From a virus, in the IMG/VR virus record IMGVR_UViG_3300013102_000052, positions 1 through 33,589 of that record: a DNA stretch of 33,589 bases. One strand, written 5' to 3'. Numbering within the stretch: the stretch's first letter is position 1; the number at the start of each line of letters is the position of its first letter. The position numbers and the translations under genes are program-made. Of the stretch, positions 15,645 to 26,064 are shown piece after piece. The notes under the pieces are model-generated. The model was not told the origin of the DNA, did no database searches, and saw only the letters and a program-made list of their open reading frames with translations.

Positions 15645-16220
15645 TTAGATTTGATCGCCCTCAAAAGACCCTATCAAGTAGCTCTGAATGATCTCGGCCA
15701 CCTCCAGCTCGTCTTCGGCCGACAGCCCGAGGTATGGACGAGCTGTCATCTCGGTTGATCGAGCGCCATGCGTGACCCACTGCGAAAAGTTGGATGTGCT
15801 CTTCTTCACGAATCGATTCCCGACACCGTCCTTGCCTGCCTTGAAGTAAACCTGCTGGGATCGGGCGGCATGGTGAATGGGGCCGCCGAACTGATGGATG
15901 GCGCCATAAACGCGGTCGGTGCCAAAGTCCAATTCGTTATTGGATACCTGGTGCCGGAACGAGTCCTGCAACATGCCGCTTTCGCGCAGGATCTTTTCCT
16001 TGTTGCGCTTCTTGCGGGCGAGTGTCGACGGCGCCAGTGGCGCCCAAGGCGAGCCGTCCGGCCCGACCTTGCGCCGGAACCGATCATCGGTGGAAAGATG
16101 CAGGTACTCGGCAACATCATTTAACGGGGTGGTGACATCGCCCAAGCGCTCCGCCAACTCCAGCAGCGCCGCGCTCGCCTGCTCGGCCGTGCTGGTGACG
16201 GTAAGAAATGAACCTGCCAT
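15645..16220 (-). CDS. Virion morphogenesis protein, Mu gpG family
   Basis: A 191-residue protein of the phage virion morphogenesis family (Mu gpG / P2 gpS). Typical motifs are LHLSTDDRFRRKVGPDGSPW, APLAPSTLARKKRN and ILRESGMLQDSF, followed by YGAIHQFGGP and a C-terminal TARPYLGLSAEDE. In this family it is linked to tail completion and head-tail joining. It follows MuF with an 8-bp gap and precedes the 244-bp promoter-like gap. Confidence 0.92.
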   Translation of the reverse strand: MAGSFLTVTSTAEQASAALLELAERLGDVTTPLNDVAEYLHLSTDDRFRRKVGPDGSPWAPLAPSTLARKKRNKEKILRESGMLQDSFRHQVSNNELDFGTDRVYGAIHQFGGPIHHAARSQQVYFKAGKDGVGNRFVKKSTSNFSQWVTHGARSTEMTARPYLGLSAEDELEVAEIIQSYLIGSFEGDQI

Positions 16221-16228
16221 GTGCGCTC

Positions 16229-17458
16229 CTACTTAGGCCGGCGGTAAAGACGAACACCCACACGAAGGGTGGCCAACAACTCATCACCGCCTGCGCCCTG
16301 GTGGGTGGTCGAAGTCCAGCCATCGCCGTCCGTTTCGAAGGCCACGGTTTCTGGGTTGGTCTGGCCTGCCACGGCGAATCGCGAGACATAACGTTTGCGC
16401 AGGACTGCACGCTTCTGGTCCTCCAGCCAGTCAAGGCGCGTCCAGATCTCGTCGGGCTCGCGGATGGCCTGAGCCAACAACAGCAGATCACCAGGTGGAA
16501 GACGCAACTTACCATCAGCCCCCTCGAACATCCCGCGACCGATCACCAGCGGATCTCCCGCCAGATCTCGGAACACGGCCGGAGCGTCGGATTTGGCACC
16601 GAACGTCTTCAGGAAACGATCCACCTGTGCGGCAGGCTTGAGACCCTTCGGCATGCGCTGGGCATCAGTAACAGGTCTGGCTTCCGGCAGCGGGCGCGCC
16701 GGAGTACGACTTGGCACGCCCGGTGCTGGTTCGATCTTCTGACTTGGCTCGCGGATCTGGGGCACCGCACCAGTCAGCCTGGATTGACCAGGTGCATAGT
16801 CAAAACCGGGATCAATGCCGACGGGCACTTTCACCGAACGGGGGCCAAGCGGGCTGTTCATGCCCACCACTTTCTCTTCATATTCGATAGCAGGTGCAGG
16901 GCCGACCTTCAGGCCTTGCCGCTCAACGTCGCGCTGACTGACCATGAACTTTTTGCACTTACAGCCCCAGCCGTTCTGGGGGCTATGGGTAGACCACCAT
17001 GGATCGTCCAGGGGCAACACGGTGCCGTTCCAGGACAAGTGCACCGGCCGAGGATGGGCGCTGTCACCATGTCGATACAGCCCATACGGCCGTGCCTTCC
17101 TTAATTCAGGGTCGGCCATCTGTGCTTCGCGACCTGCGTTGTAGCTCTGCCGCAGGTTGGTCTCGTAGATCACACGCGTACGCCAGCCCCGGCCGCCGTT
17201 GTACTGCCAGCCATGCTTGGCGACGACTTGGTCAAAGTCTTTGCGAAACTGTTCCAGGGTGCCGCCGCTGACAATGGCCTTCTCAACCGAGCCCCGCAGG
17301 CTGGTCAGCAAGTCCCGCTTGGAGGCACCGGCCACTACAAACGCCCAGTCGTGCTCTTCTTTATATACATCTGCCCAGGCACGGGTCGGTAGGCTCGTCT
17401 TGCCACGAAAGAAATCGATCTGCTCCTGGAACGGGAGAGAGCCGTGAGAGACCGCCAT
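16229..17458 (-). CDS. MuF minor head protein with C-terminal PBECR-like RNase domain
   Basis: A 409-residue protein. Residues ~40-180 are the Mu gpF/SPP1 gp7 head-morphogenesis domain: RVIYETNLRQSYNAGREAQ near 95-113, the RPVHLSWNGTVLP segment, and GWGCKCKKFMVSQRDV near 163-178. A Pro-rich linker (about 235-275) leads to a compact C-terminal domain (about 280-409) with VDRFLKTFG, DPLVIGRGMF, a REPDEIWTRLDW helix and a final LLATLRVGVRLYRR strand. This matches the phage Barnase/EndoU/ColicinE5-RelE-like (PBECR) nuclease fold often fused to MuF proteins. Activity is untested. It is coupled to the portal gene (TAATG). Confidence 0.87.
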   Translation of the reverse strand: MAVSHGSLPFQEQIDFFRGKTSLPTRAWADVYKEEHDWAFVVAGASKRDLLTSLRGSVEKAIVSGGTLEQFRKDFDQVVAKHGWQYNGGRGWRTRVIYETNLRQSYNAGREAQMADPELRKARPYGLYRHGDSAHPRPVHLSWNGTVLPLDDPWWSTHSPQNGWGCKCKKFMVSQRDVERQGLKVGPAPAIEYEEKVVGMNSPLGPRSVKVPVGIDPGFDYAPGQSRLTGAVPQIREPSQKIEPAPGVPSRTPARPLPEARPVTDAQRMPKGLKPAAQVDRFLKTFGAKSDAPAVFRDLAGDPLVIGRGMFEGADGKLRLPPGDLLLLAQAIREPDEIWTRLDWLEDQKRAVLRKRYVSRFAVAGQTNPETVAFETDGDGWTSTTHQGAGGDELLATLRVGVRLYRRPK

Positions 17459-19017
17459 TACAGCCCCCTCAGCACGTCATAGCGTCCTGCCAGATTGGCC
17501 GCGACCAGTCCATCTGCCATGGCGTCCGCCAGTTGAGAGCTGTTCATGGCGGGATAGGCTTCGATCAGCCGATCCCGGAATTCTTCCAGGCTGTCCGAGG
17601 CATCGAGCAGTTCCTTGATCACATCGACCATGTCATCCATCCCGACTGCCGCCAGGCTTTCGAGTGTATCCACCTGGTTATCCACGATGTCCCGTGCGGA
17701 CGGCGCGGCCGTAGCAGGTTGCTCGCGGTTGGTGGCGGTGGCCAGCGCGGTTTGCTGGGAGGCTTGAGCAGGCACACCGAGAATCTCCGCACCATCGGCC
17801 GGGGCTGGAATGTTCAGCCTGTCCCGAATTACCGACTGCTCAACGCGAAGGCCCAGCGGCACAAGATCCTTGATTGCGCCGACCAAGAGCTGGACGTTTT
17901 CCGGCTTCGGAACGTCCACGATCAAGCGCGGATAGGGTCGACCCGGCGCATAGTTTAGATCGCAGTATGGGCGCACCAGGTATCGGTTCAGCGTGTTACT
18001 CAGAGCTTTTGCATCAGCCGTGAGCAAGTCCAAGCGCACTTCGTTGTGAACTTGGGCCTGCGCCAGGCTTGCTCCATCGTCGGCACTCATTGTCTGGCCG
18101 ACTACCGCCTTGCTGACCTGCTTGTCCCACCATTCGGCCAAGCCTTTAAAGAAGTCGCCAGCCCCGGCGACGTTTGCCGCTGCCTGGAAGTCGATGCGCA
18201 TCGAGTCGGGAATGACGGCCGCTGCATCACTGCCGAGATTGGCTACCGCCGACAGCAACACGCCGATATCGTCCGCGCTGGCACCAGGACCGTAACGACC
18301 GACGCGCATGGGGATACCGTAGATGTCGGCAAAGCCCATCCAGTCCTTCCAAGTCCAGGCTTTGCACATATAGGCAACGGTCGCGAGTCGAGCCAAGCCG
18401 CCACGGATGGGTAGGCCAGACCGTATTCGCGGAAGGTGTGTGATGAATTTGTAAGGCGCAAGGGCGAGCCCGTTCATGGGATCAGCCTCATCGAGCAGCC
18501 GCAGCTCACGCCCAGTGGCCCGGTCGAATTGGAAAAAGCGCTGATCGCGCTGCTCGTATCGCTCGGGCACCCATTCTTTCCCGCTGCGATCCCAGATGAT
18601 TTCCGATACGGCGTAGCCTTTGCCCAGGGCGTCGACCAGGTCGGCTTGCAGTTCTCCGAACTCCGGCTGGGTTACCAGCACTGTGAGGGCTTCGGCTCGG
18701 CGCACGTCCTCAGCATCGTCGCTCGCCGCTTCGATTCGGACATTCAAACCGGCGACCGCCAATTTCCTGGTGCCCAATACCGATGCGTAGTGCAGATCGC
18801 GCTCTTCCATTTCTTCGGCAAGGGTCAGGTAATCATGGGCCGAACCCTCGACTGCCGCCTGAAGAATGGACGCAAGGCGACCTGGAGTGAGGCCGCTGGC
18901 CACCGACGAGTGCCAAACCTGTCGAACTCCGGTCAGACGTGGGGCCGCAAGTTCTTGCGTCAGTTGACCTAAGTCGATTGGGCGGCCGTGTTGATCCACG
19001 ATGCGCGATTGAGCCAT
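17458..19017 (-). CDS. Portal protein, Mu gp29 family (DUF935)
   Basis: A 519-residue protein of the DUF935 portal family. Hallmarks: RIVDQHGRPIDLGQLTQELA at the start, AEEMEERDLHYASVLGTRK, the central IYGIPMRVGRYGPGASADDI, and KAVVGQTMSADDGASLAQAQ. It forms the ring through which DNA is packaged and to which MuF binds. Start and stop overlap the neighbouring genes by one base. The C-terminal ~100 residues are helical and acidic. Confidence 0.92.
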   Translation of the reverse strand: MAQSRIVDQHGRPIDLGQLTQELAAPRLTGVRQVWHSSVASGLTPGRLASILQAAVEGSAHDYLTLAEEMEERDLHYASVLGTRKLAVAGLNVRIEAASDDAEDVRRAEALTVLVTQPEFGELQADLVDALGKGYAVSEIIWDRSGKEWVPERYEQRDQRFFQFDRATGRELRLLDEADPMNGLALAPYKFITHLPRIRSGLPIRGGLARLATVAYMCKAWTWKDWMGFADIYGIPMRVGRYGPGASADDIGVLLSAVANLGSDAAAVIPDSMRIDFQAAANVAGAGDFFKGLAEWWDKQVSKAVVGQTMSADDGASLAQAQVHNEVRLDLLTADAKALSNTLNRYLVRPYCDLNYAPGRPYPRLIVDVPKPENVQLLVGAIKDLVPLGLRVEQSVIRDRLNIPAPADGAEILGVPAQASQQTALATATNREQPATAAPSARDIVDNQVDTLESLAAVGMDDMVDVIKELLDASDSLEEFRDRLIEAYPAMNSSQLADAMADGLVAANLAGRYDVLRGL

Positions 19018-25344: not shown

Positions 25345-25755
25345 TTAGTGCAGGCGTGTGATTTCTGTGTTGTTTGCGACCAGGTGTTTCTTGAGGGAAT
25401 TGAAGCTTTTCCAGCAGTTGTCGTAGGTGTACCACTTCATTTCTGCTGCCTTGTCCGCTGCCCGCTTGCCATGCATACGTCGGTGAAACTCAAGATCCCT
25501 TTTGTTGTAAAGGCCACGAGTAACCTTACGCATAAAACGTCGGGTCTCTTCATGCTCGGGCTCGCCAGTACGGTTATCACACTTAAACCAGATACCTTTG
25601 AAGTAGCCATCGACATATATCGTCGTATACCAGCTATTGGTTTTAGGATCGGTAACTTGGTAGAGGTTTAGCTCGTATCCGTCGCACTTAAGGGCCATGC
25701 TCCCGTATGGGCTTGCCATCTGTTCTTTCAGCTCATCCCAATCAGATTGCTCCAT
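25345..25755 (-). CDS. Hypothetical early protein
   Basis: A 136-residue protein that I do not recognise. It is aromatic-rich in the middle (LNLYQVTDPKTNSWYTTIYV, GYFKGIWFKCDN) and strongly basic later (FMRKVTRGLYNKRDLEF, RRMHGKRAADKAAEMKW). The basic half could bind nucleic acid. Of two adjacent ATGs, 25755 has GAGG at the better spacing. A pair of strong hairpins lies just upstream. It is visibly more AT-rich than the head genes. Position between DUF3164 and gemA suggests an accessory early function. Confidence 0.65.
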   Translation of the reverse strand: MEQSDWDELKEQMASPYGSMALKCDGYELNLYQVTDPKTNSWYTTIYVDGYFKGIWFKCDNRTGEPEHEETRRFMRKVTRGLYNKRDLEFHRRMHGKRAADKAAEMKWYTYDNCWKSFNSLKKHLVANNTEITRLH

Positions 25756-25779
25756 CATTTCCTCGGCTGCTCGTCAGTA

Positions 25780-25824
25780 CCGGGCAACCACGCCCGGCAG
25801 ACCGCCCCGGTTTCCCGAGGCGGT
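25780..25824 (-). other. Tandem strong stem-loops in the early operon
   Basis: Two hairpins sit side by side in the 72-bp gap before the gene at 25755. One has a 10-bp stem (25801-25810 with 25815-25824, one G-U pair on the minus strand) closed by a GAAA tetraloop. The other is a perfect CCGGGC/GCCCGG stem (25780-25785, 25792-25797). Neither is followed by a U tract, so they may stabilise or process mRNA rather than terminate. Confidence 0.6.
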
Positions 25825-25830
25825 TTCGCT

Positions 25831-26064
25831 TTAGTGGATAGTCGGTTTGGTTTGAAGCAGCTCGCGGGTTGCCTTACAAACCTCGCAGTCACAGCCGGGC
25901 ATCGGTGAGTTAATGGGCAACGCAATGCGTCCCAGCAACTTGGCACCATTCACCATTGCATCTACAACGCGGCCTGCCGGGCTGCTGTGTAGATCGCTAT
26001 GGTTGTCGATGCTGATTGATACAGTGCCTTCGGTGTCATCTACGGTGATTTGGAACTTAGCCAT
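25831..26064 (-). CDS. Small hypothetical protein with CxCxxC motif
   Basis: A 77-residue protein. The N-terminal half is beta-like (FQITVDDTEGTVSISIDNHS). The C-terminal part carries CDCEVCKATRELL, a CxCxxC cluster that could bind metal, though a full zinc site would need another ligand or a dimer. Ribosome site is weak. It is a member of the early block of unknown genes, separated from DUF3164 by 41 bp. No function assigned. Confidence 0.6.
   Translation of the reverse strand: MAKFQITVDDTEGTVSISIDNHSDLHSSPAGRVVDAMVNGAKLLGRIALPINSPMPGCDCEVCKATRELLQTKPTIH

Follow-up and report, generated by a model that had tools for sequence, protein, structure and literature searches.

Introduction

Fusions of the phage head protein MuF with a PBECR domain were described in 2017 (Iyer et al., PMC5512222); they are encoded in Mu-like head operons, and their PBECR part was predicted to be an injected RNase. 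The PBECR active site was placed in a C-terminal Ser/Thr and a His within a helix, for which one of the six families has Arg, and the PBECR domain of Mu gp30 was already proposed to be inactive. No mention of an RNA partner was found in that paper, whereas the intact PBECR2 domains analyzed here are accompanied by an RNA, which is lost alongside an active-site residue. The MuF polymorphic toxins (Jamet et al. 2017, PMC5576092) are likewise encoded directly downstream of the portal gene and have swappable C-terminal domains, but they are followed by small immunity ORFs. At that place intact PBECR2 genes have an RNA, and the window, by which we mean the whole 33,589-nt stretch of DNA that was analyzed, has nothing.

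Two kinds of RNA-neutralized toxins are also comparable. Type III toxin-antitoxin systems (ToxIN, CptIN, TenpIN; PMC5086642) combine a putative endoribonuclease with a pseudoknotted RNA. However, their toxin family differs from PBECR2, and their antitoxin consists of upstream tandem repeats with an intervening terminator, while the PBECR2 RNA is downstream and usually a single copy of ~90 nt. The prophage toxin AbiF also has an adjacent structured RNA, RCd22, which neutralizes it by direct binding (PMC12373285). Unlike PBECR2, AbiF is related to Abi_2/Cas13 and is not part of a phage head, and for PBECR2 the inhibition is presumed. A literature search for PBECR2 and PF18810 returned no other relevant paper, and no PBECR antidote was found described. 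MuF-PBECR fusions have been known since 2017; the cognate structured RNA of intact PBECR2 appears to be new, although papers beyond those searched may describe it.

Results

The MuF-PBECR2 gene of a Mu-like phage

The 33.6-kb record IMGVR_UViG_3300013102_000052 is a Mu-like phage with its genes in reverse orientation. It encodes a MuA-type transposase, an AAA protein, GemA, Mor, terminase, portal, MuF, gpG, protease I, the major head protein gpT and tail genes, and its right end carries an S24-type repressor. Its closest relatives are IMG/VR phages, with a MuF ~90% identical, and prophages of Pseudomonas species at ~60-65% identity. The features of the locus are listed in Table 1.

Table 1. 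Coordinates of the MuF-PBECR2 gene, its neighbors and selected residues in the window
Feature	Position	Strand	Basis or remark
Portal protein (Portal_Mu), upstream of MuF	17458..19017	-	Pfam 340 bits
MuF-PBECR2 head protein gene, 409 aa (ATG start, read from 17458 to 16229)	16229..17458	-	ORF, translation, Pfam, PHROG 220
Phage_Mu_F domain, aa 54-168	16955..17299	-	Pfam 46.2 bits (cut-off 29.6)
Pro-rich linker, aa about 229-265	16664..16774	-	seen in translation
PBECR2 domain (Pfam PF18810), aa 280-405	16244..16621	-	Pfam, AF2, dN/dS
Glu312	16523..16525	-	alignments; approximate position of the N-terminal-helix His (His-type) and of LF-Arg (many Arg-type members)
Pro321	16496..16498	-	alignments; conserved Arg/His position, 14 residues before PxEIW
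Thr385 (strand 4; W+4)	16304..16306	-	Val or Phe in sister phages
MuF-gpG gap, 8 nt	16221..16228	-	RNA insert absent in window
gpG (Phage_tail_S, virion morphogenesis), 191 aa, downstream of MuF	15645..16220	-	Pfam 118 bits

The sequence-only reading had described a MuF head protein with a C-terminus of the PBECR group after a Pro-rich linker, and Pfam, PHROG 220 and the translation agree with this. The PBECR2 match covered the full length of the Pfam model (1-120/120; 67.3 bits, cut-off 27.1, E 1.8e-18), and PHROG 220 ("minor head protein and DNA pilot") matched the window MuF with E 2e-90. As in MuF polymorphic toxins, the window gene has a MuF domain, directly follows the portal gene and has an exchangeable C-terminus. 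Tails on the same MuF domain were PBECR2, PBECR3-like, MuF_C-like, ADP-ribosyltransferase, others unassigned, or none, and PBECR2 also occurred as solo genes without MuF. In two loci with an ADP-ribosyltransferase tail (PF03496; L136 and L137), ~170-210 nt precede gpG, which leaves room for a small ORF. PADLOC returned no match.

The AF2 model of the window PBECR2 consists of a helix followed by five strands (pLDDT 93). A fold comparison had been proposed as a check on the PBECR assignment. Foldseek searches of PDB and BFVD with the window domain and with the His-type domain of L154 gave no significant match, solved BECR nucleases included, and thus neither support nor refute a BECR fold; a PDB sequence search with PBECR2 also gave no significant match.

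Active-site residues of the window copy

For the comparison of residues, 89 PBECR2 domains were aligned. Divergent members have an HxVxKR-like first helix and an Arg 14 residues before a PxEIW motif. In those nearer to the window the first-helix His is missing, and the Arg before PxEIW is kept or has a His in its place. In the AF2 model of the His-type L154 domain, helix 56-64 contains the His, and the next helix begins with the Arg. The Arg/His helix position presumably corresponds to the catalytic position of Iyer et al. (PMC5512222).

In the window clade, the N-terminal-helix His/Arg of an active PBECR/BECR RNase is replaced by Glu312 and Pro321; Pro321 is fixed in the clade, and sister phages share the fixed PPGD motif. 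For the C-terminal Ser/Thr, the window has a candidate in Thr385 of strand 4, where its sisters carry Val or Phe. This strand-4 Thr was considered as a discriminating residue and rejected, as it neither tracks the RNA nor separates the groups overall. The most conserved polar residues of the family, Glu337, Arg354, Arg356 and Arg399, vary little or not at all among its members. The window retains all four, and some activity may be left.

Purifying selection still acts on the PBECR2 domain of the window clade (omega about 0.19). The dN/dS of the MuF N-terminal 228 aa against close relatives is about 0.02, and the PBECR2 protein changes roughly eight times faster than MuF. Because the residue is lost while selection persists, the window PBECR2 is probably a retained but catalytically dead domain. 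The earlier description as a probable RNase-type toxin domain stands as far as the PBECR family is concerned, while activity of the window copy is doubtful, with Glu312 and Pro321 where family members have His or Arg.

An insert downstream of MuF tracks the helix residue

No immunity ORF (<150 aa) was found directly downstream of MuF, where only 8 nt precede gpG, and the statement that no immunity gene is visible nearby was borne out. There is no slot for a protein immunity gene, and two ORFs overlapping the junction and gpG were tested without a Pfam match. Because an immunity gene was sought, MuF-gpG distances were measured across PBECR2 loci. The spacing between the MuF stop codon and gpG was bimodal, either up to 34 nt (with some overlaps) or about 90-150 nt, with a few larger values, while MuF genes without a PBECR-type tail had gaps of 2-14 nt. 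In the closer relatives, the long insert begins at the MuF stop codon and lies just before the ribosome-binding site of gpG.

The insert was compared with the helix residue in 119 MuF-PBECR2 proteins for which gpG was found, the "intact" Arg/His class being defined after the alignment had been seen. Of the proteins with an Arg or a His there, 67 had the insert and 1 lacked it; of those with any other residue, none had it and 51 lacked it. The sole exception (L008) has an Arg by alignment, a gap of 33 and a loop deletion. On the tree, the RNA state changed eight times, with at least five changes on well-supported branches. In five well-supported independent pairs, the residue was concordant in 4.9 on average and never opposite (sign test p 0.0625; with eight concordant pairs p would be 0.008). 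The window, with Pro321, Glu312 and the 8-nt gap, has neither residue nor RNA. Thus, residue and RNA were lost together in the window lineage and, in parallel, in several others.

Tails of the MuF_C type gave a related picture. Those with an HxxR helix (L101, L102, L138, L139, L142) had gaps of at least 119 nt, and Mu gp30, phiSHP3 and JBD67 (L162, L166, L167), from which the helix motif is absent, had gaps of 2-11 nt. Two loci (L143, L150) were mixed, with long gaps and no clear His motif.

The insert RNA has a covarying kissing loop

The insert RNA of the relatives near the window is ~90 nt long and consists of a hairpin P1 followed by a hairpin P3 nested in P2, with the loop of P1 pairing with that of P3 as a kissing loop. 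Its alignment (group R1) comprised 33 sequences, which came from phages of the Pseudomonas type, prophages of Pasteurellaceae, an Entotheonella MAG and another Pseudomonadota genome. In this alignment, 95.1% of the cells were paired, and 21 of 27 pairs had compensatory changes on both sides. The covariation was 0.486, compared with 0.166 for shuffled and at most 0.109 for slid alignments. Since a G-U pair is present in 29 of the 33 sequences, the RNA strand is the coding strand.

A second RNA of like design, 96% paired, accompanies the solo His-type PBECR2 genes of Pseudomonas genomes; its kissing-loop pairs were compensated in 7/7. A third subtype follows His-type MuF-PBECR2 and has the stop codon within the outer helix (five sequences aligned). 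Inserts outside the R1 and solo-gene RNA groups were assessed from their length and by visual inspection. The kissing loop covaries in two RNA groups, and in intact relatives a pseudoknotted RNA lies beside the putative toxin gene, as in type III systems. Rfam contained no family, ribozymes included, for the insert RNA in the loci scanned. Single-sequence minimum-energy z-scores of the inserts were unremarkable, which is uninformative partly because the kissing loop is not modeled; the structure therefore rests on covariation. A search of the window with the R1 model gave no match.

The RNA is linked to PBECR2 genes

A sequence pattern built from the RNA only retrieved 27 IMG/VR loci, and in 24/24 checked a PBECR2 frame ended 37-44 nt upstream. 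The covariance model was searched against 399 Pseudomonadota, 300 Pseudomonas and 140 Pasteurellaceae genomes, and the matches mostly adjoined PBECR2; in Pasteurellaceae, the RNA was beside 11/11 PBECR2 above the cut-off. The linkage of RNA and PBECR2 is thus well supported.

The type III layout of upstream tandem repeats with a terminator was not found in the intact relatives. One Pasteurellaceae prophage (L308, positions 1618-1922) has three tandem, divergent RNA copies after a single MuF-PBECR2, an arrangement that resembles an immunity array.

Copies without an intact PBECR2 were few (L213, L214, L215, L306, L307). They were considered as clean proof of an antitoxin and rejected, as L306 is a prophage scrap with a PBECR2 remnant, L214 follows a remnant and L307 is partly degraded. 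Only L213 and L215 lack any remnant. The lone RNA of L213 (2409-2498, +) is close to a tRNA gene; the same Pseudomonas genome harbors a prophage in which MuF-PBECR2 is accompanied by the RNA. The lone RNA of L215 (2486-2576, -) adjoins a DUF3800 gene. In two Pasteurellaceae genomes, the RNA is located at one end of a CRISPR array, close to cas1/cas2 in L306 (2711-2800, -) and to cas3 in L307 (2707-2795, +).

The solo PBECR2 genes of Pseudomonas genomes (L232-L249) each have their own kissing-loop RNA, and some are near C4 antisense RNA or tRNA genes. Their positions suggest satellites or integration hotspots.

Discussion

How the producing cell is protected was a question of the sequence-only reading, and the RNA between F and G is probably the answer for the intact relatives, the window having lost both this RNA and the residue. 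The insert RNA, which resembles the antitoxins of type III systems but differs in layout, probably serves PBECR nucleases as an antitoxin or immunity element, which would act by inhibition. The explanation that we favor, with a probability of about 0.62, is that the PBECR2 of the window is disarmed, and that its armed relatives carry a cognate RNA antitoxin, which was lost together with the residue.

On this explanation, the window PBECR2, at the C-terminus of the MuF of a Mu-like, Pseudomonas-type phage, would descend from an RNase module that phages deliver, and would since have been disarmed. In armed relatives, the ~90-nt kissing-loop RNA lies within a few nt downstream of the PBECR2 frame on the same strand, and probably on the same transcript. 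It would fold in the producing cell, bind the PBECR2 domain and block the nuclease. A MuF entering a new cell with the phage DNA, a delivery presumed from the literature, would come without the RNA and be free to cut RNA. A live nuclease would need its antidote; once the nuclease was dead the antidote might decay, or loss of the antidote might force the death of the nuclease. Since the domain stays under purifying selection after the loss of residue and RNA, the disarmed PBECR2 presumably keeps a non-catalytic role, which may be RNA or DNA binding or head structure.

The RNA could also serve PBECR2 as a substrate, guide or activator, or be an autoregulatory cut site in the mRNA, and have been lost once the enzyme was dead. 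Its strict adjacency and its loss together with the residue are equally expected in that case, and the toxin stop codon within the outer helix of some subtypes suits control at the mRNA level. However, three tandem divergent copies after one toxin suit an immunity element better, and RNA copies outlive the nuclease gene, although the latter point is weak, most of them being prophage remnants. Such a role of the RNA is unlikely in our judgment, but is to be taken seriously. A leader, processing signal or ribozyme acting on gpG or late mRNA independently of the nuclease would fit the place of the insert, which separates F from G and directly precedes the ribosome-binding site of gpG. This is highly improbable, as an equivalent RNA accompanies solo PBECR2 genes, gaps are short where MuF has no PBECR-type tail, the insert tracks a PBECR2 residue, and no Rfam ribozyme family matched.

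Two further accounts concern the protein. The window PBECR2 might still be an active RNase working through Glu337, Arg354/356 and Arg399, with the producer spared by low copy number or sequestration in the head. The near-invariance of these residues, their retention in the window and the purifying selection on the domain would be in keeping with activity, but Pro321 and Glu312 stand where the family has Arg/His, sister phages carry Val or Phe instead of the strand-4 Thr, and the RNA partner is gone, so that we consider an active window copy rather doubtful. That PBECR2 was never a toxin, but purely a structural or DNA-pilot part of MuF, would agree with the inclusion of the domain in the minor head protein of PHROG 220, and with its persistence after loss of the residue. 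Tails are nevertheless swapped among relatives with the same MuF domain, and PBECR2 also exists without MuF, so that a purely structural part seems improbable.

Returning to a disarmed PBECR2 with an RNA antitoxin in its armed relatives, the wider proposal would be that PBECR nucleases, both the phage-head MuF fusions and the solo chromosomal ones, form a new toxin class with a cognate kissing-loop RNA antitoxin, that lineages disarm by joint loss of residue and RNA, and that hosts may retain stray RNAs as immunity. We lean toward it, though only slightly. The RNA, in tracking the intact residue, would be a simple marker for armed phage-head nucleases, and the question of producer protection becomes a two-plasmid test. 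If true, RNA-neutralized toxins would extend to proteins carried within phage heads.

Rfam also matched elements other than the insert RNA, for which it had no family. A MuF-PBECR2 locus (L158, 2010-2094, +) matched sRNA-Xcc1 (RF02221, 69.8 bits). In the window, a type II hammerhead ribozyme (RF02276, 72.1 bits) was located at 25761-25831 (-), in the early gene region and close to gemA and mor, stopping just short of the ORF 25345-25758.
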